Source: Saccharomonospora cyanea NA-134 (GTDB taxonomy: Bacteria; Actinomycetota; Actinomycetes; Mycobacteriales; Pseudonocardiaceae). Taken from it: a DNA stretch of 64,000 nt. Made by a program: the position numbers and the translations under genes. This document shows positions 13,251 to 57,800 of the stretch, piece by piece. Within the stretch, counting starts at the first letter, position 1. Each line of letters starts with the position of its first letter. The notes under the pieces are model-generated. The model ran no database searches. It was not told where the DNA came from and saw only the letters and a program-made list of their open reading frames with translations. The stretch lies in the NCBI RefSeq assembly GCF_000244975.1, contig NZ_CM001440.1, positions 2,898,325-2,962,324 on the forward strand, in the 5' to 3' direction.

Positions 13251-13334
13251 CGGTGGTTTCCTCGGTTGTCCAGGGCAGGCCGGGACGGCCTGGCACACGT
13301 GTTCGGTCGGTCGGCGCCGGGCACGCCGGGACGG

Positions 13335-19057: not shown

Positions 19058-20989
19058 TCAGGTCGCGGTGGCGACGATCAGTGCCTGCCCGAGCCCGGCC
19101 CCGGGGTGGTCCGCCGGAGGAAGGCAGGCCTGCACCGTGAACCCGGCCGATGCCAGCGCACTCCGCCAACCGTCGAGGTCGGGGAACATGCGGCCCTTCC
19201 GTGCCCGCCCGTCGGCGGAGCCCGGCAGCGGCGCCGTCTCGTCGGCCGACCGCAACAGCTGGATCGAGGCGAGCAGGGCGTAGTTCTCCACCGTGGACTC
19301 GACGACGACGAGCGTGCCGCCTCGCCGAAGGGTGGCCCGTACCGAGCGCAGTGTGCGACCGAGATCGACAGCGCTGTGCAGCACGTGTCCGGCGATCACG
19401 ACATCCGCGGAGGCCGAGGGCGCACCCTGCGCCAGGAGGTCGTCGTTGACGTCGAGCAGCGCGGGACGCACCCGGTGCCGGTGTGCGTCCCAGCGGGCCG
19501 CGGCGACCAGGAACAGGCGGGAGATGTCGCTGTAGACGTAACGGACTTCGTCGAACCCGGCGGTGTCGAGTTCGGAGAGGACCACTCTGGTCGTGGCGCC
19601 GACCCCGGCGCCGAGCTCCAGCACCGTGGCGGTGCCGTCGACACCGCGCAAAGCCGTGACCACGGCACGGGCGGCGGCCGCGTTGAGATAGCGACTCGCC
19701 CACCCTTCGCCGTAGAGGGCCTCGGCGATTCCGGTGTCGCCACCGGGGAACAGCAGCGAGCTCAAGGCCACCTCACCCCGGACGAGCTCGGGCAGCCGGG
19801 AGCGCACCCGCGAGTGGAACCGACCGACGGTCGCGGGGAAACCGAGCGCGGAGTACACCGGTTCGAGATCGGCCTCCGCACTCGCCGTGGGGATGGTGGG
19901 AACGGGACGGACCCGGCCGCCGTCGAGTTCGAACACCCCCTCCTCGACCAGCACCGCGAGCCACCTCCGCACGAGCCACGCCGTACCGGGCGCGACGCGG
20001 GCCTCGGACAGGATCTCCTCCACCGTGCGTGCTCGTCCGTCCGCGCACGCGTCGGCCAGCACCCGCGCCATCGTGGCGAGGGCGATACGTTCGGCCTCCT
20101 TCCCGGCCGCGACCGCGGGTTCCGGGTCTGTGACGTGGGCCAGCCCCGCTCGATGTGCCTCGTCGGCCAGCCCCGCCGGGAACCGGGGGTGTTCGGCGGC
20201 GGTGAGGGAGTCGGTGACGTCGTCGGCCAACCGGGACACGGTGAGACCGAGCTGGGCCGCCGCCACGTCGCGTGCCCCGGTCCGCTCCCCCACCGAGGTG
20301 TGGAGGGCGGTGAGCTGCCGGTGCAGCACGGACCCGAGATCCGGTCGCCTGCTCACGGCTTCCGGTCTGCCGCCGAACGGACCGGGTAGCCACGTCAGCC
20401 CGTCCGGGGAGGCCAGCACGGTCCCGGCGGCTCCCCTCACGGCGATCCGGTCGGGAACGAGGTCGGCGGTACCGCCCTCGGTCCGCACCACCAGCGTCAC
20501 GGTGGTGGTGCCGACCGTGCCGGCCAGCAACTCCGGTGCCCTGGCCACGAGCCGCCACGGCCGCAGTGACGGAAGGAGTCCGTGCAGTACACGTAGCGCG
20601 GTGTGGAGCCCCGCGGGGGACGTCACCAGTTCCACCTCGGCCACGTCGCCCCGGCCGATGCGCTCGGAGACCACCTCGGCGAGTGGCCCCACCGCCTCCG
20701 CCAGGTCCAGCAGAGCGAAGTGCGCCCCAGCCCTCCGTGCCGTACGCAGGGCCGACGTGACCGCCCGGCTGCCCCACGGGGGCTGCACCAGCACGGACAC
20801 ACCCGAGCCGAGCAACTCCTCGACCCGCTCGGCCGCCGCTTCCCCACCGTCCACCACGAACGCGGCGTCGATGTCCTGGTCCGGTCCGGCCACCACGGTG
20901 AAGAACTCGCCGAGGTCGGCGAGCACCTTCCACACCGGGTGACCGGCTTCCGCGTGAACGCCCAGCCGGGCGGGAACCGGGGCGGTCAT
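19058..20989 (-). CDS. Fusion of thiazolinyl-imide-reductase-like domain with a SAM methyltransferase
   Basis: 644 residues starting at the ATG that overlaps the LuxC-like stop (ATGA). Residues 1-260 resemble the thiazolinyl imide reductase encoded at 45,317-46,414: ELLGSGVSVLVQPPW (59-72) aligns with its RFLTRGVPVLQEHPL, followed by a similar helix and, further on, GLTWLPGPFG and VLHRQLTALH. But the GTGFG nucleotide loop is absent and EHP is QPP, so this half is probably not a reductase. Residues about 380-640 form a class I methyltransferase (LFPGGDTGIAEALY; VLELGAGVGATTR at 457-468) of the kind usually embedded in PKS/NRPS modules as C-methyltransferase. Likely role: methylating a carrier-bound thiazoline or acyl intermediate. 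Last gene of the lux-like operon. Confidence 0.8.
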   Translation of the reverse strand: MTAPVPARLGVHAEAGHPVWKVLADLGEFFTVVAGPDQDIDAAFVVDGGEAAAERVEELLGSGVSVLVQPPWGSRAVTSALRTARRAGAHFALLDLAEAVGPLAEVVSERIGRGDVAEVELVTSPAGLHTALRVLHGLLPSLRPWRLVARAPELLAGTVGTTTVTLVVRTEGGTADLVPDRIAVRGAAGTVLASPDGLTWLPGPFGGRPEAVSRRPDLGSVLHRQLTALHTSVGERTGARDVAAAQLGLTVSRLADDVTDSLTAAEHPRFPAGLADEAHRAGLAHVTDPEPAVAAGKEAERIALATMARVLADACADGRARTVEEILSEARVAPGTAWLVRRWLAVLVEEGVFELDGGRVRPVPTIPTASAEADLEPVYSALGFPATVGRFHSRVRSRLPELVRGEVALSSLLFPGGDTGIAEALYGEGWASRYLNAAAARAVVTALRGVDGTATVLELGAGVGATTRVVLSELDTAGFDEVRYVYSDISRLFLVAAARWDAHRHRVRPALLDVNDDLLAQGAPSASADVVIAGHVLHSAVDLGRTLRSVRATLRRGGTLVVVESTVENYALLASIQLLRSADETAPLPGSADGRARKGRMFPDLDGWRSALASAGFTVQACLPPADHPGAGLGQALIVATAT

Positions 20990-22209
20990 ACGCGCACCGT
21001 CACCAGGCGACTGAACTCGTGCAGCAGGTCGTAGCCGTCCCACACGGCGCCGAACCTCGTCGCCTCCCCCACGGGTACCAGCCGGTCGACACCGCAGGCG
21101 GCGAACGCCCGCGCGTGTCGCGCCAGCACCTCGGACTCGAAACCGAAGTGGACGATCGTCTGGTCACGCCGCCGCAGCAACGGGACCAGGTCGCCGGGGT
21201 CGTCGAGCCGTACCTCGGCGAGCGTGCCCGCCCCGAGCCAGGTCCGGGGCAGCTCCGCCGAGGGCGCCAGCTCCAGCACGGCGACGTCATTGCCGTGGAA
21301 GCGCACCCGGCGCACCACCGACGTCGCGGCCAGCCCGTAGGCGGCCACGTGCTTCTCCACGGCCATCGCCGCGTCGACACCGGTGCCTCGTTCGGCGACC
21401 CGCTGCCGCAGCAACGTCACCAGTTCGGCACTCGCCTCCCGTACGAGGTCCTCACCACCGACCCACACCAGGGTCCGGGGGGAGGAACACGCGGCCTGGT
21501 CGAACAGGAACACGTCGTCGTGCAGTCCCCGGACCGCGGCCTTGCGCTGTGACTCCGGCGCGGCCGCCCAGCCCCGCGCGTCGAACAGCGCCAGTGACGA
21601 TCGGTCGGGGAAGGTGAGGTCGCGGGCCTTCGGCGCGAGCGGATGCCGCCGGATCGCCGTGACGGTGGCGTCACCGCCCCAGATCACGCGGAGATCGCAC
21701 GCCGAGGACAGGGTGGCCGTGACGGTGCTGTCGCGCGGATAGCGGACGAAGTGCTGGGTGCGGGCGAGATCGGGGTCCGCTTCGGCGAGCGCGTCGGTCA
21801 CCGCCTCCACCAGCGCGGTGGCGGTGGTCGAGGCCCGCTCCGAGAGCCGCACGACGTTGCTGTTGCCTGCGAGCAGTGACAGTGCCCACGAGTATCCGAA
21901 CAAGGCGTCCACGTTGGCGGGTGGAATGTGGAACACCAGACCACGGGGCATCCGCACCTCACCGTCGCGGGTGGCGAGCCGGGACAACAGACCCGTCAGT
22001 GCGGTGTCGCGCAGGAAAAAGCCGAGCGCCGCGAGATCGGGGTGCTGCCGGGTCGTCGAGGGCGACAGCAATCGGGAGGCGAGGTCCGTCAGGAACGGCC
22101 GGACTCGCATGTCGCCGACCTCCAACGGCCTCCCCGGCCGGGCCAGCTCGTCGAGCAGGAGCGTCACCTCGGTCGGTGCTCCACCGGCAGCGGGCGTCAC
22201 CACGCTCAT
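20986..22209 (-). CDS. LuxC-like acyl reductase
   Basis: 407 residues of the LuxC family (acyl-CoA/acyl-protein reductase). It shows the aldehyde-dehydrogenase-like fold signatures FHIPPANVDALFGYSWALSLLAGNSNVVRLS (92-123) and the catalytic thiol in LFDQAACSSPRTL (Cys241). In bacterial luciferase operons LuxC takes an acyl group from LuxE onto this Cys and reduces it with NADPH to an aldehyde. Here LuxE-like and AMP-ligase genes lie directly upstream with overlapping junctions, so the three likely form one acid-to-aldehyde reductase. There is no luxAB pair next to it. The true acyl substrate is unknown. Confidence 0.9.
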   Translation of the reverse strand: MSVVTPAAGGAPTEVTLLLDELARPGRPLEVGDMRVRPFLTDLASRLLSPSTTRQHPDLAALGFFLRDTALTGLLSRLATRDGEVRMPRGLVFHIPPANVDALFGYSWALSLLAGNSNVVRLSERASTTATALVEAVTDALAEADPDLARTQHFVRYPRDSTVTATLSSACDLRVIWGGDATVTAIRRHPLAPKARDLTFPDRSSLALFDARGWAAAPESQRKAAVRGLHDDVFLFDQAACSSPRTLVWVGGEDLVREASAELVTLLRQRVAERGTGVDAAMAVEKHVAAYGLAATSVVRRVRFHGNDVAVLELAPSAELPRTWLGAGTLAEVRLDDPGDLVPLLRRRDQTIVHFGFESEVLARHARAFAACGVDRLVPVGEATRFGAVWDGYDLLHEFSRLVTVRV

Positions 22210-23237
22210 GAACCCACCCCCGCGTCACTGCAGCCCCGGGCCTCGGCACGGGGCAGCCTGCCCAGCACGGTGAAGCGGGTACGGCCGTCCACCCGGTGCG
22301 CCACACCGAGATCCTCGGTGAGCAGTGAGTGTCCCGGGTACGAGCGGGGCAGCGTGCTGAGGACCTGGACGAGCCCGGTCTCACCGGGCCTCGCCTCCTG
22401 CCATGTCACCGGATCGCGGATGATCACTTCGGCCCCTTGCGGCGGGGACAGCAGCCCCGGCTCGTCGCTCTCCAGGTGAACCACCCCGATCTGCTCGACC
22501 ATGCCGTAGAAGTCGTGCGAGCGGCTCAAGCCGACCCGCGCCGCGGCCGCCCGGAACGCGGCGGCGTCGACGGCCTGGTCGGTGAGCCGCTTCCAGCCCC
22601 CGGAGTGCAGCAGGATCCCACCTGAGAGGTCGAGCCCCTCCTGTTCCGCGGGCCGGATCAGGCGCGTCCACACCAGGTAGGTGAACCCGAAGACGAGGAA
22701 CGGCTCGCCGCCGTGGCGGCGCAGGAAACCGTGGAGCGCGGTGACATCGAGCCGGTCGTCGTCATCCAGCACGAACGTGTGGTCACGCCCGGCGTTCATC
22801 AGGCCGAGTACTCCCGCCGCCCTGGCCGACCGGGTCGCGCCCCGCCTCGCCTGGGCCGCCGAGTCCACGACCAGCATCGGCAGCCTCCTGGCGCCGAGCA
22901 GCGGGCGCAACGTGTTCAGCAGAGCACGCTGGTGGGCACGGGCCGCCGGTGCGTCGAAGTGGATCCGGCTCGGCTTGCCGGTCGTGCCACTCGACGTCAG
23001 CACCGAGGACACCGCGTCGGCGGCCACACTGCGCAGCACGTGGTTCTTGAACAGCCGGACCGGCAGCCACGGCACGTCGGACAGGGCGGCGTAGTGCCGG
23101 CCGGGTTCGTGTCCGGTGGCGGCGAGGATCCGCGCGTACTCCGGACAGTGCCGGCGGTGGTACTCCACCAGCTCGACGAGGTCGGGCAACAGCTCCGCGC
23201 GGCGGGAGTGCACAGCGGGCTCCGGTGGGGTCGTCAT
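22206..23237 (-). CDS. LuxE-like acyl-protein synthetase
   Basis: 343 residues from the ATG at 23237, which overlaps the stop of the AMP ligase (ATGA). Motifs of the LuxE family include VPWLPVRLFKNHVLRS, VLTSSGTTGKPSRIHFD and HDFYGMVEQIG. The C-terminus ends with ARGCSDAG, matching the RGCS motif that holds the acyl-accepting Cys of LuxE (Cys336 here). It would pass an activated acyl group to the LuxC-like reductase. LuxE can adenylate on its own; the separate ligase upstream may supply another substrate range. Gene order ligase-luxE-luxC-methyltransferase is unlike the luminescence operons. Confidence 0.88.
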   Translation of the reverse strand: MTTPPEPAVHSRRAELLPDLVELVEYHRRHCPEYARILAATGHEPGRHYAALSDVPWLPVRLFKNHVLRSVAADAVSSVLTSSGTTGKPSRIHFDAPAARAHQRALLNTLRPLLGARRLPMLVVDSAAQARRGATRSARAAGVLGLMNAGRDHTFVLDDDDRLDVTALHGFLRRHGGEPFLVFGFTYLVWTRLIRPAEQEGLDLSGGILLHSGGWKRLTDQAVDAAAFRAAAARVGLSRSHDFYGMVEQIGVVHLESDEPGLLSPPQGAEVIIRDPVTWQEARPGETGLVQVLSTLPRSYPGHSLLTEDLGVAHRVDGRTRFTVLGRLPRAEARGCSDAGVGS

Positions 23238-24628
23238 CGGGTCCGCCCAGGGTCGGTGGCGCGCAGCCGCTGATAGTCGATCTTGCCGTTGGGCAGCCGA
23301 GGCAACGCGGTGACGTGGTGAACGAGGAAACCCGCTCTCGGTAGCCCGAACTCGCGCACGAGCCGGGCCCGCACCTCGTCCTCGCCCGCGCCGCTCGCCG
23401 ACCACACGGCCACGCGGTCGTCGGCGTCCAGCGCCGCTACCGGACCGACGTCGTCCAGTGCCCGCTCCACGACGTCCAGGTCGACCCGGGTGCCGAAGAC
23501 CTTGCCGACCCGGCTGCGCCGCCCCGTCAGCCACAGGAAGCCCTCCTCGTCGAGCCTGCCGAGGTCGCCGGTGCGCAACGTCCCGCCCAGCTCGTCGCCG
23601 CGTGCCAGGTCCTCGGGCCCCTCCGCGTAACCGAGCATGACGTTGGGACCGTGGTAGACCACTTCCCCGTCGTCGATGTCGACGCGGCCGCCGGGGATGG
23701 GGAGCCCCACCGAACCGAGCTTGTCCTTCAGCCGTTCCGCAGGCAGCACGGTCATCCTGGCCGTGGCCTCCGTCTGTCCGTACATGACGAACATGCGTAA
23801 CCCGTCGGCCTCGGCGAGCTCGCCGAACCGGCGCACGAGCCGGGGCGCCAGCCTGCCCCCCGCCTGCGTGAGGGTGCGCAGCGTCGGGTTCCGGCCGGGT
23901 CGCCAGCGGATGCCGTCGAGCGTCTCGTAGGTGTGGGGGACACCGGCCAGCGACGTCGCGCCGTGCTCGTCGACCGCGCGCCAGAAACGCGGCGAGAGCA
24001 CGCCGCCGTCGCACAGCACCACCGTGGCGCCCACCAGCAGATGGCTCGTCAGCACGGAGAGCCCGTAGCTGTAGTGCAGGGGCAGGCTGGTCGGTGCCAC
24101 CTGGCGGCCGTCGATACCGAGTGCCTGGCCGATGGACACGGCGTTCGCCCGCACAGCGCCCGCGGACAACCGCACCGCCTTCGCCGCCCCTGTCGACCCC
24201 GACGTGGTCAGCAACAGTGCGAGGTCGTCGTGCGGGGTCACGTCGAGACGGCCGGAACGCACCCAGCCGGACAGTTCCGGATCGTCGTCCACGCGGAACC
24301 CGGCCGGAGGTTCCTCCCGGACCGGCTCGACGTCGTCGAGACCGAGTACCGCCCGCAGGCCGAACGCCTCCGCGAGGGTGGCGGCCTGCCCCGCCGACAG
24401 CCGGGGCGGCACGAGCAGTATCGGCCTGCCGGTCTCGAACGCGGCCAGCAGCCGCAGCACCGAGGGAAGGCACGGCGCCGTCCGTGACGCGACCGCTCCA
24501 CCGGGCAGCCGGTCCAGAGCCGTCTTCACCCGGTCGATCTCCCGGCGCAGGCCGGCTCCCTCGAGTACGCGCCCCTCGACCGAGCCGACGAGCCGGGCCC
24601 CCGGTGCGACCAGGGTCTCGGACCCCAT
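23234..24628 (-). CDS. AMP-dependent acyl ligase of the lux-like operon
   Basis: 464 residues from the ATG at 24628, preceded by GGAGGGAGG. It is a member of the adenylate-forming family with LLTTSGSTGAAKAVRLS (A3), MYGQTEAT (A5), LRTGDLGRL (A7) and PRLPNGKIDYQRL (A10, catalytic Lys). At the HNxPL position of aryl ligases it has LPLHYSYGLSVL, typical of small acyl/aryl-CoA or carrier ligases rather than EntE. It is the first gene of the operon, 75 bases from the SDR gene upstream, and probably activates the acid reduced by the LuxE/LuxC pair, or loads a carrier. The substrate cannot be read from the sequence. Confidence 0.87.
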   Translation of the reverse strand: MGSETLVAPGARLVGSVEGRVLEGAGLRREIDRVKTALDRLPGGAVASRTAPCLPSVLRLLAAFETGRPILLVPPRLSAGQAATLAEAFGLRAVLGLDDVEPVREEPPAGFRVDDDPELSGWVRSGRLDVTPHDDLALLLTTSGSTGAAKAVRLSAGAVRANAVSIGQALGIDGRQVAPTSLPLHYSYGLSVLTSHLLVGATVVLCDGGVLSPRFWRAVDEHGATSLAGVPHTYETLDGIRWRPGRNPTLRTLTQAGGRLAPRLVRRFGELAEADGLRMFVMYGQTEATARMTVLPAERLKDKLGSVGLPIPGGRVDIDDGEVVYHGPNVMLGYAEGPEDLARGDELGGTLRTGDLGRLDEEGFLWLTGRRSRVGKVFGTRVDLDVVERALDDVGPVAALDADDRVAVWSASGAGEDEVRARLVREFGLPRAGFLVHHVTALPRLPNGKIDYQRLRATDPGRTR

Positions 24629-24703
24629 GGCTGCCTCCCTCCGCAGTGGCCGTGTCCACAGTGGTCCGGCGCACTTTCTACCCGGCACACCGCCCGGTGT
24701 CCA

Positions 24704-44550: not shown

Positions 44551-45317
44551 TGACCGGGCAGGTGCGGCGTGAGGCGGCGCAGCACGTCGGAGACGACGGC
44601 GTGGCGCATCGGTACCAGGAAGAAGTGGTCACCGGAGTAGGTGCGCAACTCGAAGTCGGGGTCCGTGGTGCACGCCGCCCACGCCTTCATCGCGTCCGGA
44701 TCGACCTCGGGGTCCTCGCGGCCCGCGTGCGCCGTGATCGGACACTCGACGGTGGCGGTGGGATCACCCGTGTAGGTCTCGCTCAGCGCGTAGTCGGCCC
44801 GCAGCGCGGGCAACGCCATCGCCTTCACGTCGGGATCGTCGGCCAGCTCCGCCGGTGTGCCGCCGAGCCTGCACGCGTCCTCCCACATCTCGTCGTCGCC
44901 GGCGAGATGCCGCACGCCGGGCCACACGGGTGCCGGACGGCCGGAGACGAAGAGGTGTACGGGAGGGGCACCGCTTCGCGACCGCGCGAGCGCCACCTCG
45001 AACGCCACCGCCGCTCCGAGACTGTGCCCGAACAGCGCGACCGGCACCGTCGTGGCGTCCTCACCGAGTTCGGTGTCGAGAGCGGTCGCCACCTCTCCCG
45101 CCAGTGTCCGCAGATCGGTGCGGAAAGGCTCGCGACTCCGCTCCGCCCGGCCGGGGTACTGCACGGCGACCACCTCGATACCGGGTGGGAACCGCAACGC
45201 CCACGTCCGGTAGAACTGGGCGGAGCCCCCGGCGTGCGGCAGGCACACCAGAAGCAGTCGCGGTCGCGGACTCGGCCGGTACCGCCGCAGCCAGGTGTCG
45301 GCTCTCGTCGCGCTCAT
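44529..45317 (-). CDS. Type II thioesterase
   Basis: 262 residues with LLLVCLPHAGGSAQFYRTWA (21-40), the oxyanion and nucleophile motif FGHSLGAAVAF (Ser99), and the C-terminal His in YSGDHFFL, all typical of NRPS/PKS type II thioesterases. These remove misprimed groups from carrier proteins and sometimes release product. The ATG at 45317 overlaps the thiazolinyl imide reductase stop (TGATG). Because the TE domain of the upstream NRPS has lost its Ser and His, this enzyme is a candidate for real product release. Confidence 0.93.
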   Translation of the reverse strand: MSATRADTWLRRYRPSPRPRLLLVCLPHAGGSAQFYRTWALRFPPGIEVVAVQYPGRAERSREPFRTDLRTLAGEVATALDTELGEDATTVPVALFGHSLGAAVAFEVALARSRSGAPPVHLFVSGRPAPVWPGVRHLAGDDEMWEDACRLGGTPAELADDPDVKAMALPALRADYALSETYTGDPTATVECPITAHAGREDPEVDPDAMKAWAACTTDPDFELRTYSGDHFFLVPMRHAVVSDVLRRLTPHLPGQLWPSTP

Positions 45318-46414
45318 CAGCGTGCTCCCGTCGTCGGCTCGGTTCCGGCCAGCACATCGTCCACGTCGAGCACCTCCGGATCGGGCCGGTGGATCAACCG
45401 TACGGGACCGAGCAGTTCGTTCACCTTCCTGGACAGGCGGCTCAGCAGCAGTTGTCGCTGGCCGTGGGCCCTGCCCCCGTCGCCGGCGACGACGTCGTGG
45501 CGCAACGCGGTGATCGCGCGCAGGATGCCGTTCGGCCACAACTCGGCGAGCGCGTGGCGGTAGCTCGGCGCCTCCGCCGGTCCGACGACCCGGGCGCTGG
45601 GCAGGTCGAGGTGGGTGGCGGCGGAGTCACCCAGGCGCACCGCCGTCGCGAGGTCGGTGGGCATGTGCGCCCGGGGGGTCCACACCACGGGCCCGTGGGT
45701 GTTGACGAGTGTCAGCTGCCCGCCCTCCGTACCGATCGTGACACGGTGCAGCAGGTGCGCGTGGTTGTCCGGCGCTCGGGGGTCGAGTTCGTGCTGTACG
45801 CGCAGCGCGAACGGCACTCCCGCCAGCTCGCCGGAGACCGTCCGGAACGGGCCGGGTTCGCCGGGCGCGGCGGTCAGTCCGGTCGCACGCGCGCCGCCGA
45901 GTGCCTCGCCGAGCACCTCGAGCAGTGTCTGCAGCACCTGGTAGGCGCACGTCGCCTCGACGAAGAGCGCGGGCTGCCGCGTGAGCAACCGCCGCGCGGC
46001 CGCCACGAACCGGCGCACGGGCTCGACGTGCACGAACAGCGTGTCCACGTGGTGCACGGTGCCGTGCCGTCGCGCGACGCGCAGGCAGGAGGCCAGTTCG
46101 TCGGGGTGCAGGGGGTGCTCCTGCAACACGGGCACACCCCGCGTGAGGAACCGCTCCGCGAGTGTCGCGCCCGGCCCTCCGACGAGTCCGGAACCCACCA
46201 CGACACAGGCCAGGGCGACGTCGTCGGGCACCTCGTCGACGTCGCGGTAGAGCGGCACCCCGTAGTGCTCGGCACACGCGACGGACCGCGCGCTGCCCCT
46301 GGCGAGCACTCCGGCGGGCCGGTAGGGGCTGTCCGGGCGGCTGAGCGCCTCCAGGTACACCCGGCCGAAGCCGGTGCCGCAGACCACCGCGGGCGGCCGC
46401 TCCGCAGGTGTCAC
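45317..46414 (-). CDS. Thiazolinyl imide reductase (PchG/Irp3/YbtU-like)
   Basis: 365 residues of the Gfo/Idh/MocA-like family. VVCGTGFGRVYLEAL (10-24) is the NADP-binding loop, QEHPLHPDEL (98-107) carries the EHP motif in place of EKP, and VDTLFVHVEPVRRFV follows. PchG and YbtU reduce the C=N bond of a carrier-bound thiazoline to a thiazolidine in pyochelin and yersiniabactin synthesis. The gene is coupled on both sides (GTGA to the saccharopine-dehydrogenase-like gene, TGATG to the thioesterase) and lies downstream of three Cy-A(Cys)-T modules, which fits the role. A partly decayed relative is fused to a methyltransferase at 19,058. Confidence 0.93.
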   Translation of the reverse strand: MTPAERPPAVVCGTGFGRVYLEALSRPDSPYRPAGVLARGSARSVACAEHYGVPLYRDVDEVPDDVALACVVVGSGLVGGPGATLAERFLTRGVPVLQEHPLHPDELASCLRVARRHGTVHHVDTLFVHVEPVRRFVAAARRLLTRQPALFVEATCAYQVLQTLLEVLGEALGGARATGLTAAPGEPGPFRTVSGELAGVPFALRVQHELDPRAPDNHAHLLHRVTIGTEGGQLTLVNTHGPVVWTPRAHMPTDLATAVRLGDSAATHLDLPSARVVGPAEAPSYRHALAELWPNGILRAITALRHDVVAGDGGRAHGQRQLLLSRLSRKVNELLGPVRLIHRPDPEVLDVDDVLAGTEPTTGAR

Positions 46415-47583
46415 AGCACTCCCTCCTCGACGTCGTCGACGACCTCGGACCGCTCCGCGGTGCCGTCCGAGGTCGTGGGGGACGTGAACCGTTCCAGCAC
46501 GGTGACCTCGGGTTGTTCCCGCAGCCAGGCGCAGAGCGCGTCGGCGTCGACGACGTCCTGGACGTGCTGGGCTCCGGGCGGCTCCGCGCCCTCCAGCAGT
46601 CGCCTCGCACTGAACGACGCGACGGCCGCCGTGAGGGCGTAGGTGTCGGTGCCGCGCAGCAGTGCCGTGCGGCTCTCCGGAGTACCGTCCCGCGTGGTGC
46701 CGTCGAGCTGGAACACCAGGGTCTGGTAGGGCGTGCGGCCGAAGAGATCCAGTTCGGCGGCCTCACACAGCAGCCGCGCCGAGGCCGAGAGGTCACCGTC
46801 GAGGCCGTCGGCCTGGAGTCTGGCCAGTGTCCGCAACACGTGGCCCTCGCCGTCGAACACGTTCCACCAGTCCACTTCGGACAAACGAAGGGACGAGGCG
46901 AGTCGCTCGGTCTCCAGGCTGAGGTACGGCTGCAGGTCCACGGGGGACGAGAAGAACGGCACCCGCACTCCCGAGACCGGCCCCAGCGCGCGGGAACGTC
47001 GCTGTCCGTCCCGCCACGCCGCCATGGCCTCGCCGTGCTCGCCCGCCAGGGTGAGCAGGTACTCGGCAGCCCCCACCGGTGTCATCCGGTCGAGCAGGCC
47101 GACGTACGCGGTCAGCGACCGGCGCTGGACCATGCCTTCCGCCAGCCAGTGAGGCAGCACACTCGTCAGTCCGGGCATCAGCCCCGCGTTGATGACGGCG
47201 GTGAGGCCGCTGGCCGCCCAGTCCTCGTGCGACAGGGCACGCCAGAGCGGCACGTCACCACCGGGGTCGACGTAGTGGGCACCGGAGGCCAGCGCGGCGA
47301 GTGCGACCCGGTCGACCACCGCGTACGACGGTCCCGCGCAGTTCACCACGACGGAAGCCCCGGCGCAGAACTCGGCCAGTGCCGCGTCGTCCCACAGGTC
47401 CACGGCGACGACCTCGACGGTCCCCGCGGTCTCGGCTGTCTCGGCGTTCGGCGGAACGACCGAACGCATCACCTCCGGGCGCCGCGCTCCGAGCCGCAGT
47501 CCGACTCCCGACCGCACCAGCTGGCGGGCGGTGTGCAGGCCGACTCCGCCACTGGCGCCCAGCACCGCGACCAGGCCGCTCAC
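46411..47583 (-). CDS. Saccharopine-dehydrogenase-like NAD(P) oxidoreductase
   Basis: 390 residues from a GTG overlapping the NRPS stop (GTGA). N-terminal Rossmann loop VLGASGGVGLHTARQLV (7-23), VVVNCAGPSYAVVDRVALAALASGAHYVDPGG (about 86-117) and a C-terminal domain with VFDGEGHVLRTLA are typical of the saccharopine dehydrogenase NADP-binding family. Such genes occur beside thiazoline-forming NRPS genes; the role could be a second imine/thiazoline reduction or a redox step on the peptide. Two reductases in tandem after the synthetases hint at two reduced rings or opposite stereochemistry, which is inference. Confidence 0.85.
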   Translation of the reverse strand: MSGLVAVLGASGGVGLHTARQLVRSGVGLRLGARRPEVMRSVVPPNAETAETAGTVEVVAVDLWDDAALAEFCAGASVVVNCAGPSYAVVDRVALAALASGAHYVDPGGDVPLWRALSHEDWAASGLTAVINAGLMPGLTSVLPHWLAEGMVQRRSLTAYVGLLDRMTPVGAAEYLLTLAGEHGEAMAAWRDGQRRSRALGPVSGVRVPFFSSPVDLQPYLSLETERLASSLRLSEVDWWNVFDGEGHVLRTLARLQADGLDGDLSASARLLCEAAELDLFGRTPYQTLVFQLDGTTRDGTPESRTALLRGTDTYALTAAVASFSARRLLEGAEPPGAQHVQDVVDADALCAWLREQPEVTVLERFTSPTTSDGTAERSEVVDDVEEGVL

Positions 47584-50500
47584 CGCGCGTCCCCCGGCCG
47601 AACGTCCGTCGTGAGCAGCAGATCGGCGAGTTCCTCGACGAGGGGTGGACGCAACAGTTCCGCGGGGGTGGCTGCCGGAAGTTCCACGACGCGGACGTCT
47701 CCGAGACAGAGCTCCTCCCAGCGACTCCGTACCTCGTCGTGGTCGGCCTCACCCGCCCGTACGACGGTGAGGTCACCGACATAGGGCTGGTCGTCCTGCC
47801 GGTCCGCGGCCACCGCGGTGAGCCAGTGCCGGTAGAGCGGCAGCACGGCGGCCACGTCACCGTCCCAGCCCGCCTCGGCCGCGAGCCGCCGCGTCGTGGC
47901 CACGTCGTCGCTCACCGGCGCCGAGAGGTCCAGGCCAGCGCGGTCCCGCCCCTCACCCGCCAGTCCGAGCGACCAGGCGAGCACGCGGTGCGCCTCGTCG
48001 CCGTGAGCCAGCGCCTGCGACGGGGGGTCGTCACCGACGACCACCACGTCGGTCACCTCCACGCCGCCGTCGAGCAACAGCCGGGCGGTGTCCACCGCGA
48101 CCCGGCCCGCGAGATCGTAGGCCACCAGCCGCACGCGCTGCTGGCCGCTCGCCGCGATGGCCTCCGCGTAGCGCTCCGCCGCCCACTCGGGCAGCTCCTC
48201 GGCAGCGCGGTCGAGGAAGGCCCGCGTATCGGCCACGGTGGCCAGCGCGAGGCTCGTGGTGCCCGCCAGCGCACGCACCAGCGGGTCGAACACCCCGTGA
48301 GTTCCGGTGCCGTCCGGAAGCAGCACGGTGAGCGGCTCCTCGCCCACCGAACCCAGATCGACCAGTGAGACGGCCGCCGCCTCGGTTCCGGTGCGCTCCG
48401 GCGTGCGGTCGCGGGGCGTGGCGGGGGTCGCCGAAACGTCGGGTGTCCCCGCCGCGGGCCGCAGCAGCTCGGCCAGCGAGGCCACGGTGGCACCCTCCAG
48501 GAGCGCCCTGAGCACCTCGTCGAACTCGAGCTCACCGTCGGACAGCTCCTCCCGGAGCCGTCCCGCCAGCCGCGCGGCCAGCAGTGAGTCGCCACCGAGG
48601 AAGAAGAAGTCCTGGTCCCTGCCGACCTCGTCGCAGCCGAGCACGTCGGCCCAGCACGCGGCGATCGCCGACTCCCACGCTCCCATCGGCGCCTCACCCG
48701 AGGTCCGGCGGGGCGCGAGCCTTCGCTCCAGTGCCGCGCGGTCGACCTTGCCGTTGGCGGTCTGCGGCAACGCGTCGAGAACCTCGACCCTGGCGGGCAG
48801 CATGTGTTCCGGAAGCCGCGTGGCCACGTCGTCGAGGAGCGCCTCCACATCCAACTGGGCGGTGCCCTCGCCACCCTCGGGCACCACGAAGGCGACGAGC
48901 GACCGCTCCAGGGGCTGGCTGCCGTACGCGACCACCGCGACCGCGGACACCGACGGTGCGGCCACGACGCCCGCCTCGACCTCGGCCAGCTCGATGCGGT
49001 GGCCCCGGATCTTCACCTGCGCGTCGGTGCGGCCGAGGAACTCGACCTCCCCGTTGGGCAGGTAACGCCCCAGGTCGCCGGTGCGGTACCGGCGTTGCCC
49101 CGTGTGCGGGCACGTGACGAACCGGTCGCGGGTGCGCTCGGGATCGTGCAGGTAGCCCTGGGCGACGCCGACACCACCGAAGACGATCTCCCCCGGCACG
49201 CCGTCCGGGCACTCCAGCATGCGCTCGTCGACGACGTGGACGGTCTGGTTCGCCAACGGACGCCCGTAGGGCACGCTGTTCCAGTCGGCGGGGACGGGGC
49301 GCTCCACGACGTCGTGTGCGATGGACCAGATCGACACCTCCGTGGCCCCACCGAGCGCCACGACGTGTGCGCCGGGCAGCAGGTCACGGATGCGGTCGGG
49401 CAACGGCAGCGGCACCCAGTCACCGGACAGCAGCACCAGCCTCAGCCGTGCGGGGAGCGAGTCGGGGGCGAACGACAGGTAGTCGGTGAGCATCTGCATC
49501 TGGGCGGGCACCGAGTTCCACACGGTCACCCCCGCGTCGCACACCAACTCGGCCCAGTGGGACGGGTCCGCGCGCCGGTGCGGGTCGGGCAGCACCAGGG
49601 CTCCCCCGACGCTCAGCAGGCCGAACACGTCGAACACCGACAGGTCGAAACCGAGAGCCGCCAGCCCGAGAACCCGGTCGTTCTGACCGATGCCGTAGCG
49701 CGCGAGCAGGTCGGCGACCGTGTTGGCCGCCGACCGGTGACTCACCACGACACCCTTGGGTTTGCCGGTGGAACCCGAGGTGTGGATGACGTACGCGACG
49801 TCGTCGAGGTCCGAGGGCGGGTCCGGCACCTCCGCGACCGACGCGCGGCCGGGTCCGAGCCGGTCCACGCACACGACGAGGTCGGCGGGCGGCTCCGCCA
49901 CGGACGACGTCGTGACGACGGCCCGCACCCGGGCGTCGCGCAGGATCCCGTCGCGCCGGGCGACGGGTTGGGAGGTCTCCACCGGAACATAGGCCGCGCC
50001 CACCAGCAGCACCCCGAGCACGGCGCTCACCTGGTCGGCGCCCTTGTCCAGGACGACGCCGACAAGGTCACCGCGCCGCACCCCGCCCTCCCGCAGCGCT
50101 CCGGCGACGGCATCGGCGCGGCCGAGGAGCTCACCGTAGGTCACCTGGGTGTTCCCGGTGATCACGGCAGGACGTTCGGGGGTCCGCCGCGCCTGCGCCA
50201 GCACCCCGGCCCCGAGGGTGGTCAGAGGCAGGTCCGCCGCCGTGTCGTTCAGCGCGGTCCTGCGCTCCCGCTGTTCCGCGGGGAGGGCGACCGGGAAGGG
50301 CTGCGTCCACGCCTCGTCGTCCTCGGCCATCCGGGACAGCAGGTCGGCGTATGCGGCGAACATGTCGTCGACCATGTCGGCGGGCAACACGCCGACGCGG
50401 ACGTCCCAGTTCGTGTCCAGACCGCCCCGGCGCTCGACGTTCTGGCAGTCGATCCACACCTGCGGGGTCTGCGACAGACCACGCACGAACTCGCCGCCCT

Positions 50501-51818
50501 CGTCGGCGCCGACGTGCTCACCGTCGCCCAGCCCGATCGCGCTGGTATAGACCACCGGGAACAGGGCGGCGTCCGGTCCGCGCCTGCGCCCGATCTCACG
50601 CATCACCTCGATCCCCGAGTACCGCCGGTGCTCCAGGTCGCGCCACAGTTGCTCCTGGTGGGCCTTCGCCCGGTCGGCGAGGCAGCCACCCGCCGCCGTG
50701 TCCACCTCCAGCAGCTCGATGCCGGTGAAGTCGCCGACCAGCCTGCCGACGTCGGGGTGCAGCGGCTCCCGGTTGAGCAGGGTCAGATCGAGGGTGAACC
50801 GGGCCGTACGGCTCCACCTGCCGATCACCTCGGCGAACGCGGCGAGCACCGCACCGGACGGGCTGACACCGTGCCGACGTGCGCGGTCGCACAGCGCGGC
50901 CCACGCGTCGGGTTCGACGCGCACCGCGTGTCGCTCGAACCGTACGTCGCCCTCCGTGGTGCGCCCGCTGTCGAGCACGGGCAGTGCCGGTCCGGGCGCG
51001 AGATCGTCCACACGCGACATCCAGTAGTCGCGGGCCCGTTCGAACGCGGGTCCCGTGCGCATCCGACGTTCGGCCTCGAGGTAGTCGCGGAACGTCAGCT
51101 CGGGTGGTGGCGGCGCACCCGCCGGGTCCGTGTAGAGCTGGTGCAGTTCCGCGAGCAGGACCTGGATGCTCACGAAGTCGGCGATGAGGAAGTTCAACGA
51201 CACGTGCAGCAGCGCCGCCTCGTCGAGCAGGGTCAGGCCGAAACCGAAGAGCGGCCAGGTGCCGGGATCGTACTCGCGGTGTTCCCAGCCCCTCCTGATC
51301 CGGGCGAGCTCCTCCTCCGCCTCCCTCACCGGAAGGCCGCGGAGGTCCCGTACCAGCACCTCGGGCACGCCGGGGTCGGGCAGGACCCGCTGGCTTCCGT
51401 CGGCGTCCACGACGGCGCGCAGCATGTCGTGCCGGGCGACGAGCTCGGCGACCGCCGTCCGCAACCGCTCGGGGTCCAACGTGGGGTAGGAGACCTCGCC
51501 GTAGCCGTGGCAGCCGACCCCGCCGTAGGCGAAGGACGAGCGGCTGCCGAGGAGGTAGGCGGCCTGGACGTCGGTGAGCGGGAACGGCTCGTGTCGCGCG
51601 GCGGGATCGGGGCGCACCTCCGGCAACGCGTCGGCGGCCTTCAGGGCCGCGAGCACGTCCTCCTTGTGGTCCCGAAGCCGCCCGAGACGCTCCTCGGTCA
51701 TGACGCCGCGCGGGGCGCGATAACGCAGCCGGCCGTCCTCCTCCCACAGCACGACACCGAGACCTTCGAGTTCCGTGAGCAGCTCCACGGCGGGGCTCTG
51801 CCCTGCGGTGATCGTCAT
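47580..51818 (-). CDS. NRPS: docking-Cy-A(Cys)-T with degenerate TE
   Basis: 1412 residues. Domains: TubC-type N-terminal docking (about 8-60, LLTELEGLGVVLWEEDGRLRYRAP), cyclisation domain Cy (about 75-515), A (about 540-1035), T (FFLGGDSLL, Ser1078) and a TE-like C-terminus (about 1150-1400). The A code reads DLFNLSLIW, one change from the cysteine code DLYNLSLIWK. The Cy core motif is N209-x4-D214-x2-S217, with Asn replacing the first Asp; Thr425 and Asp457, the likely cyclodehydration pair, are kept. The TE nucleophile motif is AYDLAG (Asp1235 for Ser) and the C-terminal His motif is missing. It should add the third Cys after the two-module synthetase, whose stop overlaps its start (ATGA). 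Confidence 0.94.
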   Translation of the reverse strand: MTITAGQSPAVELLTELEGLGVVLWEEDGRLRYRAPRGVMTEERLGRLRDHKEDVLAALKAADALPEVRPDPAARHEPFPLTDVQAAYLLGSRSSFAYGGVGCHGYGEVSYPTLDPERLRTAVAELVARHDMLRAVVDADGSQRVLPDPGVPEVLVRDLRGLPVREAEEELARIRRGWEHREYDPGTWPLFGFGLTLLDEAALLHVSLNFLIADFVSIQVLLAELHQLYTDPAGAPPPPELTFRDYLEAERRMRTGPAFERARDYWMSRVDDLAPGPALPVLDSGRTTEGDVRFERHAVRVEPDAWAALCDRARRHGVSPSGAVLAAFAEVIGRWSRTARFTLDLTLLNREPLHPDVGRLVGDFTGIELLEVDTAAGGCLADRAKAHQEQLWRDLEHRRYSGIEVMREIGRRRGPDAALFPVVYTSAIGLGDGEHVGADEGGEFVRGLSQTPQVWIDCQNVERRGGLDTNWDVRVGVLPADMVDDMFAAYADLLSRMAEDDEAWTQPFPVALPAEQRERRTALNDTAADLPLTTLGAGVLAQARRTPERPAVITGNTQVTYGELLGRADAVAGALREGGVRRGDLVGVVLDKGADQVSAVLGVLLVGAAYVPVETSQPVARRDGILRDARVRAVVTTSSVAEPPADLVVCVDRLGPGRASVAEVPDPPSDLDDVAYVIHTSGSTGKPKGVVVSHRSAANTVADLLARYGIGQNDRVLGLAALGFDLSVFDVFGLLSVGGALVLPDPHRRADPSHWAELVCDAGVTVWNSVPAQMQMLTDYLSFAPDSLPARLRLVLLSGDWVPLPLPDRIRDLLPGAHVVALGGATEVSIWSIAHDVVERPVPADWNSVPYGRPLANQTVHVVDERMLECPDGVPGEIVFGGVGVAQGYLHDPERTRDRFVTCPHTGQRRYRTGDLGRYLPNGEVEFLGRTDAQVKIRGHRIELAEVEAGVVAAPSVSAVAVVAYGSQPLERSLVAFVVPEGGEGTAQLDVEALLDDVATRLPEHMLPARVEVLDALPQTANGKVDRAALERRLAPRRTSGEAPMGAWESAIAACWADVLGCDEVGRDQDFFFLGGDSLLAARLAGRLREELSDGELEFDEVLRALLEGATVASLAELLRPAAGTPDVSATPATPRDRTPERTGTEAAAVSLVDLGSVGEEPLTVLLPDGTGTHGVFDPLVRALAGTTSLALATVADTRAFLDRAAEELPEWAAERYAEAIAASGQQRVRLVAYDLAGRVAVDTARLLLDGGVEVTDVVVVGDDPPSQALAHGDEAHRVLAWSLGLAGEGRDRAGLDLSAPVSDDVATTRRLAAEAGWDGDVAAVLPLYRHWLTAVAADRQDDQPYVGDLTVVRAGEADHDEVRSRWEELCLGDVRVVELPAATPAELLRPPLVEELADLLLTTDVRPGDAR

Positions 51819-54800
51819 AGCACTCCCTCTTCCATGTCGGCCTCGGAACCACGCAGGTCCTCCACGACGGCGGCGAGCCGCTCCACCGTGGGAGCCGAGG
51901 TCAGCTCACGCAGTGAGATCCCGATCCCGAACCGGCGTCGCATCCGCTCGACGAGGCGGGTGCCGAGCAGGCTGTCCCCGCCGAGGAGGAAGAAGCTGTC
52001 GGTGCGGCCCACCGTGGGTACGTCGAGCAGTTCGGCCCACAGCGCGGCCAGTTCGGTCTCCAGCTCGCCCTGGGGCTCCACGAGCGGTGCGGCGTCCGAG
52101 GACTCCGTGAGCGCGGCCGTCACGGCCTTGCGGTCGATCTTGCCGTTGGCGGTCAGTGGCAGCGTGGCGGCCGAGGTGACGCGGTCCGGCACCATGTGCG
52201 CCGGTAACTCGTCGGAGAGCCGGGCCCGCAGGTCGGGCAGCGCGGCGTACGCGTCGGTGTCCGTGCGTTCCACCGTGGTGACCATGGCGGCGAGGTGCGC
52301 GGCGGGGCGCTCCAGCACCACCGCGACGGCTCGTTCCACAGCGGGATGGCGCAGCAGTGCGGCCTCCACCTCACCGAGTTCGATGCGGTGTCCCCGGATC
52401 TTGACCTGCGTGTCACGTCTGCCGAGGAACTCCAGCACCCCGCCAGGGCGGTACCGGCCGAGGTCACCGGTGCGGTACCAACGTTCGACGCGCCCGTCCT
52501 CCGTGGTGACCTCCACGAAGCGGTCCGCCGTGCGTTCCGGATCACCTCGGTAGCCGCGGGCGACACCCGCACCGCCGATCCACAGCTCCCCCGTGACCCA
52601 TTCCGGACAGTCCCGGCCGAACTCGTCGACGACCCGGTACGCCTGCCCGGGCAGCGGACGGCCGTACGGCACGGAACGCAGCGGCGGCTCGCCCGGCTCG
52701 ACCGACGGCACGCCCGTGACGTCGTGGACGTTCGACCAGATCGACGCCTCCGTGGCACCGCCGAGCGCGGCCAGGCGGGCGTCCGGGGCGTGCTCGGCGA
52801 GCCGAACACCGAGATCCAGGGGAACCCAGTCCCCCGACACGAGCACCGTGCGCAGGCTTGCCAGATCACCCGGGTCGGCCACCGTCAACGCCATCTCCAA
52901 CAGCGCGGGCACCGAGTTCCACAGGCTCACCCCGTGTTCCCGCACCAGCCTCACCCAGGTGCGGGCGTCACGCCGGGCGTCCTCGCCGACGAGCACGAGC
53001 GCGCCACCGGCTCCCAGCACCCCGAAGACGTCGTAGACCGACAGGTCGAAGTCCATGGCCGACACCGCGAGCACCCGGTCGGTGTGGTCCACCCCGAAGC
53101 GGTCGGTGATCGCCGCGACCGTGTTGAGCGCGGCCGAGTGGGTGATCTCGACCCCCTTGGGGGTTCCCGTCGAACCGGACGTGTAGATCACGTAGGCGAG
53201 ATCGTCGTCCTTCCCGGGCACCGGCGAGGCGAGCGGGGACACGGCGAGCAGGTCGGTGAAGACCACGGCATCCGGCAGGTCGGCGGTGGCCGCTTCGGTC
53301 ACGGCCAGCTTCGCGCCCGCGTTCTCCACGATCCTGCGCCGGCGTGCCGCCGGCTGGTCGGCCCCGACCGGCACGTACGCCGCTCCCGCCGCGACGACAC
53401 CGAGGACGGCCGTGATCTGGTCGGCCCCCCTCGGCAGCACCACGGCCACCACGTCCCCTCGCCCGACACCCGCCGCGGCCAGTCCACCCGCCACGGCCAG
53501 CGCCCGCCGGGACAGCTCACCGAAACTCACCGCGCCGTCCGGCGTCACCAGCGCCGTCGCGTCCGGATCGCGCTGGGCGGCGGCGAAGAAGGCATCGTGC
53601 AGACCGCCCGTGCCGGTGGCGGGCACCACAGCGGGTGGCGCGCCGATCAGGGGAACCGGAGGGGATGCGGCAGCGCCGGTGACGGTGACCGACGGGCCGT
53701 CCCAGTCGCCGTCCGCCAGGTGCCGCAGCAGGCCGACGAACGCGGCGAACATCGTCTCCAGCACGCCGGGGCACAGCAGGCCCTCCACGGCGTCCCACGT
53801 CACCGACAGGCCACCGGCGCGCTCGGCGACCTGGTTGTCCAGCCATACCTGCGGGGTCTGCGACAGTCCCCACACGGGTTCACCGAACGGGAACGGCTCG
53901 TCGTCGCGGGCGACGCCCAGCGCACTGGTCAACACCACCGGCATGGTCACCGCCGCGTCACCGGTGCGTCTGGCCAGCTCCCGCAGCACCCACAGCGCCG
54001 ACGCGGCACGGTGCTCCATGGCCTCCCAGATCCGGTGCTGCACGTCGAGCGCGTGCTCGGCGAAGCCCGCGCCGAGCCGGGGCCGGAACGGCACCAGCAC
54101 AAGGGACGTGAAGTCGCCGACGACCGCGTCGATGTCGGGGTGGACGTCACGGCGATCGAACACGGTGAGGTTCAGCGTGAGATCGGCGCGGTCGCTGAAC
54201 CGCGACAGCACGGTGGCGTACGCGGTGGCCAGGACCGCCGACGTCGTCACCCCGTGCTCGCGGCTGCGCGCGGTGAGCCGTCGCCACTGTTCCGGTTCGA
54301 GCCGCGCCTCGAGCCGGGTGAACCTGGGCGCGACCATCGCCTCCGGGTCGGCCGCCAGCGGCAACCGCGGCGCGGGGGGCAGGTCGTCGAGGCGCTCCAG
54401 CCAGTGTTCGCGTGCCCTCGCCACCTCGTCGGCGGGTGGTGTGGCCCCGAGGACGTAGTCGCGGAAGGTCAGGCGCAGTGGTGGCAGGGGTGCCTCCAGG
54501 TCGCGGTAGCGAACGGCCAGCTCCCGCAGCAGCACCACGATGCTGAGCGCGTCGAGGACCAGGTAGTCGAAGCTGAAGGCGAGGCGGGTGCTCCTCCCGA
54601 TCGTGACCGCTTCCACGTGCAGCAGCGGCCAGCGTGCCGGATCGGCGATGCGGGTGGACAACCGGTCGCGCAGCCGGTCGAGCTCCCCCCGGTCGTCGGT
54701 GACGGTGACCGGGATGCGGAACCGCTCGACCACCGGCAGGACCCGCTGCCGCCCGTCCTCGTCGAAGACGGCCCGCAGCATGTCGTGTCGTTCGATCAGC

Positions 54801-57800
54801 CCGTTGAGCGCGTCCTCCAGCCTGGGTAGATCGACGTCGACACCGTCGAACTCCCAGTACCAGTGCGAGCCGACACCGCCGAGGGCGAACTGTTCGGAGC
54901 GGCCGAGCCAGTACGCCCGCTGGGTCTCGGTCGCTCCGAACGGCTCGTAGCGGTTCTCCGGGTCCGTGGCGAGGACGGGCGCCGATGCCTGTCCGGTGGA
55001 GACGAGCCCCTCGGCGAACTCGGCGAGGACCGGATGGTCGAGCAGCCTGCGCAGTGGCACCTCGATACCGCGGTCCCGCAGCCGCGCCAGCATTCGCGTC
55101 GCGATGATGCTGTCGCCGCCCGCGAGGAAGAAGTTGTCGTCCCGGCGCACCGAGGGCACGTCGAGCAGGTCCGCCCACACCTCCGCGACGAGCCGCTCGG
55201 CAGGCCCCATGGGCTCGCCGCCCCCGGCGTCCTGTCCGCGTTCTCGCTGCTGCCTCAGCAGCGTCGTGAGGGCGCCCGTGTCGGTCTTGCCGTTGGGGGT
55301 CAACGGCAGGGCCGCCACGGCGACGACCGTTTCCGGAACCATGGGCGGTGGCAGGTGCTCGGCCGCGTGCCGCAGCACCTGTTCGGACTCCAATGCGTCC
55401 GGCTCGGCGGTGGTGACGACCACGCCGAGATACGGATTCGGTGCGTCCACCACGAGCGCGACGGCGGCGTCGACGCCCGGGTGGCCGGACAGCGCCGCCT
55501 CCACCTCGCCGAGCTCGATCCGGTGGCCGCGCAACTTCACCTGGTTGTCGGCGCGGCCGAGGAACTCCAGGACTCCGCTCGTCCGATAGCGGCCGAGGTC
55601 GCGGGTGCGGTACCACCGCTCACCGTCGACCACCGGGAACTGCTCGGCGGTGCGCTCGGGGTCGCCGCGGTAGCCGAGCGCGACACCGGCACCGCCGATC
55701 CAGAGTTCGCCGGTGACCCAGTCCGGGCAGTCGCGGCCGCGCGCGTCGACCACCCGGAACCGCTGCCGGGGCAGCGGAAAGCCGTACGGCATCGAGCGCC
55801 ACGCCGGTTCACCGGCCTCCACGGCCGGCACGACACCGTCCGGCCCGGGCTCGTAGAAGTTCGACCAGATCGCGGCTTCGGTGGCGCCTCCGAGCGCGGC
55901 GAAGCGGGCGTCCGGGGCGTGCGGGCGCAGCCGTTCGGCGAGGTCGAGCGGCACCCGGTCACCGGACACCAGCACGGTCCGCAGTGTCGACAGGCTGCCG
56001 TCGTCCGCCGCCACGAGCAGCATCTCCAACAGTGCGGGCACCGTGTTCCACACCGTCACGCCGTACTCGGCGACGAGTTCGCTCTGCGCGCGGGCGTCCC
56101 TGCGCTGGTCCTCGGTGACGGTGACGAGCGCAGCGCCCACCGACAGCATCCCGAACAGGTCGTACACGGACAGGTCGAAGTCGAGGGCGGACACGGCGAG
56201 TACGCGGTCGCCCGGCCCGACACCGAAGCGCTCGTTGACCGCGACGATCGTGTTCAGCGCCGCCGCGTGGGTGATCTCGACCCCCTTCGGCTCCCCCGTC
56301 GAACCCGACGTGAAGATCACGTACGCCAGGTCCTCGCCGGACCTCGGGCAGGGCGCTTCGAGCGGTTCCGCCGAACGCAGCTCCTGAGGGGACACCACGG
56401 GAACCCCGGGGTCCGTGCCCTCTCGACGAGGAGCCTGGGTGATCAGGTGCGTGACGCCCGCACGACGCAGGATGCGCTCGCGCCGTGCGGGTGGCTGCTC
56501 GACGCCGATCGGCACGTAGGCCGCGCCCGCCGCGAGCACGCCGAGCACGCAGGCGAGTTGCTCGACGCCCTTCGGCAGGCACACCGCGACGAGATCGCCC
56601 GGCCGCACTCCCCGCTCGACGAGTCCACCCGCGACGGCGAGCGCCTCCGAAGTCAGCTCGGCGTAACCGCGCGAGCCGTCCGGACCGAGGACGGCGGGTG
56701 AGTCCGGCGTGCGCGCGGCCATGGCGAACACCGGATCGTGCAGCGTCCCGGAAGGCGCGGGCGAGTCGTCGACGAAGCCGGGCCGGTCCTCCGGCCGCAC
56801 CCCGCGCGGATCGGGTGCGGGAACGTCCCATTCGGACTCGACGGCCCACTCCACGAGGGCCGAGACGGCGTTCACCAGCGCGTCGGCGACCCCGGGCAGG
56901 AACACGCCGTCGGCGATGTCCCAGTGCACGTGCAGCGCGCCCTGCCGGTCGGTGAGCTGCACGTCGATGGCGACCTGCGGGTTCTGCGACATCGAGTGGA
57001 CGGGCTCTCCGAGGCAGCGGCGCACCTCGGGTTCGAACAGCTCACCGAGACCGAGCGCGCTGGTGAACACGATCGGCGACAGCACGGCCTCGCCGTCCCG
57101 GTGCGACAGGTCGCGGAGCACGTCGATGCCGGAGTAGGCGGCGTTCGCGAGGCGGGCACGCAGCCGGTCCTGCAACGCCCGCGCCCGCCGCGCGAACGGC
57201 ATCGGCTCGCCCGCGTCGACGTCGAGCAGCACCATGCCCGTGAAGTCGCCGACCATCGTGTCGACCTCGGGGTGAACCGGCTCGCGACCGTAGAAGGGCA
57301 CGGTGAGCAGGAACCGGTCCCGCTCGCTCCAGGCCGCCAGCACCTCCGTGAACGCGGCCAGCACGAGGGACGACTCGGTGAGCCCGGCACTCCGGGCGCG
57401 GGCGGCGAACGTGCGGCGCGCCCTGGCGGGAACGCTGAACGAGCGCTGGATCGTGGTGTGCCCCGAGATCCCGGCGAGGTCACGGGCGTAGGGCAGGGCG
57501 GGCCCGGAGTCGGGCAGTTCGGCGAGCCGCTCGCGCCAGTACGCCTCGGCCCGCTCCCTCGCCCGCGCGGTCGCGGCGCGGGCCGCGACGGTGTACGCGG
57601 GAAAGTCCACCGCCGGGGGCGCCGGGTCGAATCCGGGATCGGTGTAGCGGCGCACGAGTTCGTCGAGCAGGATGCGGAAGCTCGTCGCGTCGCAGACGAG
57701 CATGTCGATCTGGACGTGCACCCGACCACGGCCGCCGGGCAACAGTGTGAGCCGCACGTCGAAGACCTCGCCCCTGTCCACGGCGAACCTGCGGTGCACG

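Follow-up and report, generated by a model that had tools for sequence, protein, structure and literature searches.

A gene joining a decayed thiazolinyl imide reductase domain to a predicted C-methyltransferase in a coelibactin-like cluster of Saccharomonospora cyanea NA-134

The window analysed here is a stretch of 64,000 nucleotides from the single-contig, 5.41 Mb genome of Saccharomonospora cyanea NA-134, and near genome position 2.917 Mb it contains a gene on the minus strand (19058..20989) encoding a fusion protein of 643 residues plus a stop codon. The protein has three parts, namely a decayed PchG-like domain (residues 1-268; 20186..20989), a helical lid (residues 269-365; 19895..20185) and a C-methyltransferase domain (residues 366-643; 19061..19894). 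The start codon is the ATG at 20989, which overlaps the stop codon of the upstream luxC gene as ATGA; a GTG at 21043 is a less likely start because it would place 57 nt of overlap within luxC. The frame is supported by third-position GC of coding type along the open reading frame, and by a sole full-length ortholog (G068:C6) that is 55% identical overall. The luxC-type gene (20986..22209, minus strand; PF05893, E 6e-32) encodes an acyl-CoA reductase and lies directly upstream, translationally coupled to the fusion gene; its product is 71% identical to the G068 counterpart. It is preceded by a LuxE-type acyl-protein synthetase gene (22206..23276, start approximate, minus strand; PF04443, E 9e-34) and a gene for an AMP-binding enzyme of 484 aa (23234..24688, minus strand; PF00501).

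At 45–60 kb the window has a coelibactin/sorangibactin-like gene cluster containing an aryl-AMP ligase, two NRPS genes, a saccharopine-dehydrogenase-type gene and a PchG gene. NRPS1 (51815..58411, minus strand) is organised carrier-Cy-A-PCP-Cy-A-PCP, as judged from Pfam and alignment to Burkholderia arboris PchE/PchF, and both of its A domains are Cys-like. NRPS2 (47580..51818, minus strand) has a Cy domain, a Cys-like A domain, a PCP and a C-terminal TE-like region by Pfam and code residues, and contains no embedded methyltransferase; its A-to-PCP gap is about 80 aa. The Cys-type code residues of B. arboris PchE/PchF are present in all three A domains, and the product of the cluster is predicted to be an aryl-Cys-Cys-Cys chain. 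A saccharopine-dehydrogenase-type (SacchDH) protein of the SrbE/MchE kind (46411..47583, minus strand; PF03435; PMC10127202, PMC10080011) and an intact thiazolinyl imide reductase of the PchG/Irp3 family (45317..46414, minus strand) follow, the latter scoring 312.7 bits against TIGR01761 (cut-off 188.8) and matching Irp3 (4gmf) at E 4e-41. The gene set parallels sorangibactin SrbE/SrbI and mupirochelin MchE/MchI (PMC10127202, PMC10080011). In the DTLF motif of the intact PchG and of its counterpart in the G068 genome, Phe occupies the place of the active-site Tyr, which is present in Irp3 and in the majority of relatives. A luciferase-like monooxygenase gene (30534-31919) belongs to the same Cys-Cys-Cys cluster as LuxC, LuxE and the AMP-binding enzyme.

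Residues 1-268 of the fusion protein are not recognised by library models: scans with Pfam and NCBIfam return zero models at E 0.1, so that TIGR01761, with its cut-off of 188.8 bits, is also without a match, and an ordinary BLASTP comparison with the PchG of the window gives a marginal match (24/76 identities, E 0.02). A kinship of this half with the PchG-like protein had been proposed from the sequence by eye, and a profile search does detect it, although only with a custom model. A profile of 18 PchG-family proteins from related genomes (loci L037 and L038 included) gives the N-terminal half 32.1 bits and the corresponding part of the ortholog 34.8 bits, with collinear matches in both (profile positions 62-185 and 304-346). 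The best of the shuffled sequences reaches 19.3 bits (1520 scored of 2000), the reversed N-terminal half scores -2.0 bits, and hhalign aligns the half with PchG at a probability of 98.2 over 224 columns. Generic Gfo/Idh proteins reach about 15-50 bits on the PchG profile, and a score of 32 bits alone is therefore insufficient to tell PchG from generic Gfo/Idh. In the reverse test, a profile built from the two N-terminal halves alone retrieves all 18 PchGs at 10.9-37.6 bits, with other Gfo/Idh proteins at no more than 6.7 bits; in a blind run across the family (390 genomes) and the phylum (396 genomes), the same profile finds, besides itself, PchGs scoring above 250 bits at 15 of the 15 loci checked. 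The PchG profile, hhalign, the reverse profile and the blind genome searches together place the kinship beyond chance or mere Rossmann likeness, and argue strongly for descent of residues 1-268 from the thiazolinyl imide reductase (PchG/Irp3) lineage. Derivation of the domain as a recent copy of the cluster's own PchG is unsupported, as other PchGs score higher.

The N-terminal domain has lost GTxFG, RGSxRS, QEHP and a Tyr, the NADP-binding and catalytic motifs of the Irp3 family. In the alignments the dinucleotide loop GTxFG is replaced by AEAGHP (residues 13-18; 20936..20953, minus strand) within an AExGHPVW motif that is conserved in the ortholog, and the catalytic-loop QEHP by VQPP (residues 68-71; 20777..20788, minus strand), with MHSP in the ortholog, as the sequence-only reading had noted for the GxGxxG loop and the EHP motif. 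The position of the Irp3-type active-site Tyr is Ala97 here and Ser in the G068 ortholog, and about 25 residues after strand 2, including the phosphate-binding (NADP) RGSxRS, are deleted in both. The Gly loop, phosphate segment, EH and Tyr are thus all missing from both orthologs, and an intact NADP site is very unlikely on the alignments. The DPxxPDNHxHLLHRI segment of the PchG substrate region is also shortened. The two N-terminal halves share motifs particular to themselves (AExGHPVW, DIDAA, LRPWRL, DGxTWLPGPFGG and RTGARD), and over 266 aligned codons they differ at codon positions 1, 2 and 3 by 0.32, 0.29 and 0.50 with no stops; this codon-position pattern and the unbroken frame make the domain still look constrained. 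The fusion gene is nevertheless among the faster-diverging genes of the cluster, and its N-terminal half is 52% identical to that of G068 as against 72-74% for LuxC and PchG. With only two orthologs, the sampling behind conservation of the dead domain is thin: the dead-PchG and C-methyltransferase fusion is found in 2 of 390 genomes of the family, representing two genera (the phylum search covered 396 genomes).

Structure models of the N-terminal half have low confidence. A single-sequence AlphaFold model of the N-terminal half has a pLDDT of 43 and no usable fold match, with a beta-alpha-beta start (residues 8-34) at a pLDDT near 70. When the window's PchG is supplied as the sole second row, pLDDT rises to 54 and Foldseek lists Irp3 first (E 5e-6, TM 0.2), an outcome for which the input is circular.

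The C-terminal half is, with strong support, a class I SAM methyltransferase of the type found in PKS and NRPS modules, as had been proposed from its sequence, and it is encoded apart from the NRPS. It matches Methyltransf_12 (PF08242) at E 1e-13 (52 bits, cut-off 30), the closest solved structure is the CurJ C-methyltransferase (E 2e-23), and DisA and AprA MT2 are also close. The lid segment is helical or winged-helix in character and is the usual N-terminus of this type of C-methyltransferase, with phmmer alignments to AprA MT2 and CurJ extending into it. The SAM motif LELGAG is at residues 457-462. A Tyr426-His538-Glu564 triad is intact in the aligned columns, with spacings of 112 and 26 residues, equal to those of the citrinin CMeT, and methyl transfer to carbon is predicted. 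PKS C-methyltransferases of the CurJ kind use a His-Glu dyad plus Tyr in catalysis and act on beta-ketoacyl carriers (PMC9821293).

The residue at the position of His538 varies among related methyltransferases. The methyltransferase of B. arboris PchF, a reference assigned by PchE-PchF-PchG synteny only, has Asn at the position of the C-methyltransferase His, and this PchF-type N-methyltransferase together with its look-alike clade shows Asn or Ser there. PchF N-methylates and acts in sequence with PchG in pyochelin synthesis (PMC11308372). Since PchF N-methylates, His at this position may be a sign of C-methylation and Asn one of N-methylation; the split depends on one inferred N-methyltransferase reference and may serve as a lead but not as a rule.

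In a tree of 45 sequences, the fusion methyltransferase and its ortholog fall, with support 97/98, among methyltransferases encoded as free-standing proteins; this clade also holds the first copies where such free-standing enzymes occur in tandem, and the embedded domains are in other clades. On this grouping, the methyltransferase half probably acted in trans already when the fusion arose. The tree gives no support for its release from the embedded NRPS2 domain. Among the free-standing relatives compared, the PchG-like front domain is confined to the two orthologs. Heterocyclisation (Cy) modules lie within 20 kb at all nine of the inspected loci of the free-standing clade. Members of the clade are also present in clusters with no PchG nearby.

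A survey of 20 PchG-linked clusters places a methyltransferase between the A and PCP domains of NRPS2 in 15. The five NRPS2 proteins with no embedded methyltransferase are those of the window, G068, G077, G104 and G004; the fusion is present in the first two, a free methyltransferase of the Asn type in G077 and G104, and neither in G004, so that a missing embedded domain does not by itself call for a trans-acting one. The free Asn-type genes are at L036:8113-9585 (G077) and L037:10792-12261 (G104). The G077 protein has an N-terminal adenylation-domain remnant (PF00501, E 3e-5) and is possibly, from this match, a second trans-acting methyltransferase with a degenerate partner domain. For mupirochelin, C-methylation of the last ring is attributed by prediction to the embedded methyltransferase (PMC10080011), and sorangibactin A is lost on deletion of the srbE/F/G block, in which two trans methyltransferases are encoded (PMC10127202). 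A scan of viral contigs with PchG returned no match, and a scan of genome contigs a single match, of PKS type.

A related cluster from another family (f15) has AurF, luciferase-like, O-methyltransferase, ACP, P450, PchG and SacchDH genes in common with the window and contains an embedded NRPS2 methyltransferase; LuxC, LuxE, the AMP-binding enzyme, an SDR and the fusion gene are absent from it, and these co-occur in both of the genomes that have the fusion. An aldehyde-forming branch seems to be limited to the fusion-bearing lineage, with f15 having a luciferase-like gene without LuxC/LuxE. No account of LuxC/LuxE within NRPS clusters of this kind was found in the literature searched. The AurF-type N-oxygenase gene (window 28058-29362; also L092, L094 and L096) is 60-71% conserved between the two cluster types, and its conservation across both points to a product family bearing a nitro or N-oxygenated group.

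A trans-acting methyltransferase of this kind would be expected as a free-standing gene in a cluster with Cy domains, where the module concerned has no such domain of its own, which is the arrangement found here, and the simplest account of the anatomy and the comparison would be a free C-methyltransferase standing in for the absent embedded one. From these we infer the substrate and the methylated position. We give about an even chance to the fusion protein being a trans-acting SAM C-methyltransferase for a carrier-bound thiazoline in a coelibactin/sorangibactin/mupirochelin-like pathway, its decayed reductase half persisting without a catalytic role; the trans C-methylation had been suggested from the sequence, and the Tyr-His-Glu triad and the free-standing clade add support to it. 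The methyltransferase half would alpha-methylate a cysteine-derived thiazoline tethered to a carrier protein, with His538 and Glu564 deprotonating the ring alpha carbon and SAM providing the methyl group. The likeliest target would be the third, C-terminal ring on the NRPS2 PCP, favoured because this NRPS2 module lacks the methyltransferase that is embedded in most homologous clusters. The N-terminal half, a former thiazolinyl imide reductase that would have lost NADP binding and catalysis, would most likely contact the carrier-bound ring or the PCP, and on this proposal it was retained because a PchG-like surface already fits the substrate or carrier. That a dead thiazoline reductase has become a substrate- or carrier-recognition module, a pseudoenzyme adaptor for a free methyltransferase replacing the domain missing from the NRPS module, is a tentative proposal that we hold at somewhat less than even confidence; recognition of a carrier-bound thiazoline by this domain had likewise been suggested from the sequence.

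The adaptor part of this reading, and that part only, competes with a decayed domain that has no substrate role and is vestigial or a dimerisation scaffold, the methyltransferase alone being sufficient. Free-standing relatives do without such a domain, the N-terminal half diverges quickly (52% against 72-74% for LuxC and PchG) and the PchG substrate region (DPDNHxHLLHRI) is in part shortened; but the domain has stayed in frame in two genera with new conserved motifs (AExGHPVW, DGxTWLPGPFGG and RTGARD), and we consider a role of this kind possible but on the unlikely side. Continued dinucleotide binding in an unusual manner, which would make the protein bifunctional, could be read into the beta-alpha-beta start of the single-sequence model (residues 8-34, pLDDT near 70), but with the Gly loop, phosphate-binding segment, EH and Tyr gone in both orthologs, and an intact PchG already present in the cluster, it is highly improbable.

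Other readings concern the substrate. The fusion gene is coupled by ATGA to luxC, and luxC to luxE, and in both genomes it is accompanied by luxC, luxE, the AMP-binding gene and the SDR, all being absent from f15, so that it could serve a LuxC/LuxE sub-pathway in which the substrate of the C-methyltransferase would be an acyl group bound to a carrier, LuxC or CoA, methylated either ahead of its reduction to the aldehyde or afterwards, a product of the cluster's KAS III and free ACP being one example; the triad is moreover that of PKS C-methyltransferases, whose substrates are beta-ketoacyl carriers. Against this, the N-terminal domain is of thiazoline-reductase origin and the closest methyltransferase relatives adjoin Cy modules in clusters without LuxC/LuxE, and we regard the sub-pathway as unlikely. 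Less likely again is PchF-like N-methylation of the thiazolidine that the intact PchG produces, the dead PchG domain then marking a partnership. It accords with the order of PchG and then N-methyltransferase in pyochelin synthesis (PMC11308372), with the intact PchGs fused to other methyltransferases in relatives and with the N-methyl-thiazolidines of sorangibactin (PMC10127202), but His538 is present where the PchF-type N-methyltransferase and its look-alike clade show Asn or Ser.

The preferred reading, a trans-acting thiazoline C-methyltransferase, sets the fusion protein beside several known systems. With PchG and Irp3/YbtU (TIGR01761, PF21390) it shares the ancestry of residues 1-268 and the kind of gene cluster, but its NADP loop and catalytic residues are gone, it is under every family cut-off and a methyltransferase is attached. 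The PKS/NRPS C-methyltransferases CurJ, DisA, AprA MT2 and LovB are alike in fold (by sequence), lid, SAM motif and Tyr-His-Glu triad, whereas the fusion is a separate gene outside the megasynthase and its substrate is probably a thiazoline. The embedded methyltransferases of PchF, HMWP1 and coelibactin-type NRPS2 are homologous (30-39% identity), but they lie inside an NRPS and by the tree are no direct source of the fusion's methyltransferase. SrbF/G (sorangibactin) and MchF/G (mupirochelin), compared by description rather than sequence, are likewise separate methyltransferase genes in clusters that share SacchDH and PchG genes, with no reductase-derived domain reported.

Three relatives also join a PchG-family N-terminus to a C-terminal class I SAM methyltransferase, at L038:11611-13443 (G119), L084:12530-14476 (G053) and L102 (G423, assigned by its C-terminal half). 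Their methyltransferases are of a different, shorter class I family, and the PchG half is intact in G119 and G053. The embedded NRPS2 methyltransferase of G053 itself looks decayed, with MEVGLR and with Asp and Gln at the dyad. Joining PchG to a methyltransferase is thus not in itself unique; the pairing of a dead PchG with a C-methyltransferase appears to be undescribed, with no mention found in the open-licence literature searched. The sequence-only reading had regarded the architecture as undescribed, which holds for the literature searched, but had overlooked the coupling to luxC and the fusions of intact PchG to other methyltransferases.

If the proposal is correct, NRPS tailoring would have shifted from an embedded to a trans-acting domain by way of a dead copy of a trans enzyme already docking on the right carrier, and targeting by a dead enzyme would be a design idea directly testable by engineers. 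The His/Asn position would further give a candidate rule (His for C-methyl, Asn for N-methyl) for methyltransferases of thiazoline siderophore clusters, for which the published assignments consulted are predictions.

The left part of the window (2-17145) is a separate siderophore locus. It encodes an NRPS with four C and two A domains that runs off the left edge, together with transporter-like genes (by eye), a siderophore-interacting protein, a carrier protein, an isochorismatase and an aryl-AMP ligase.
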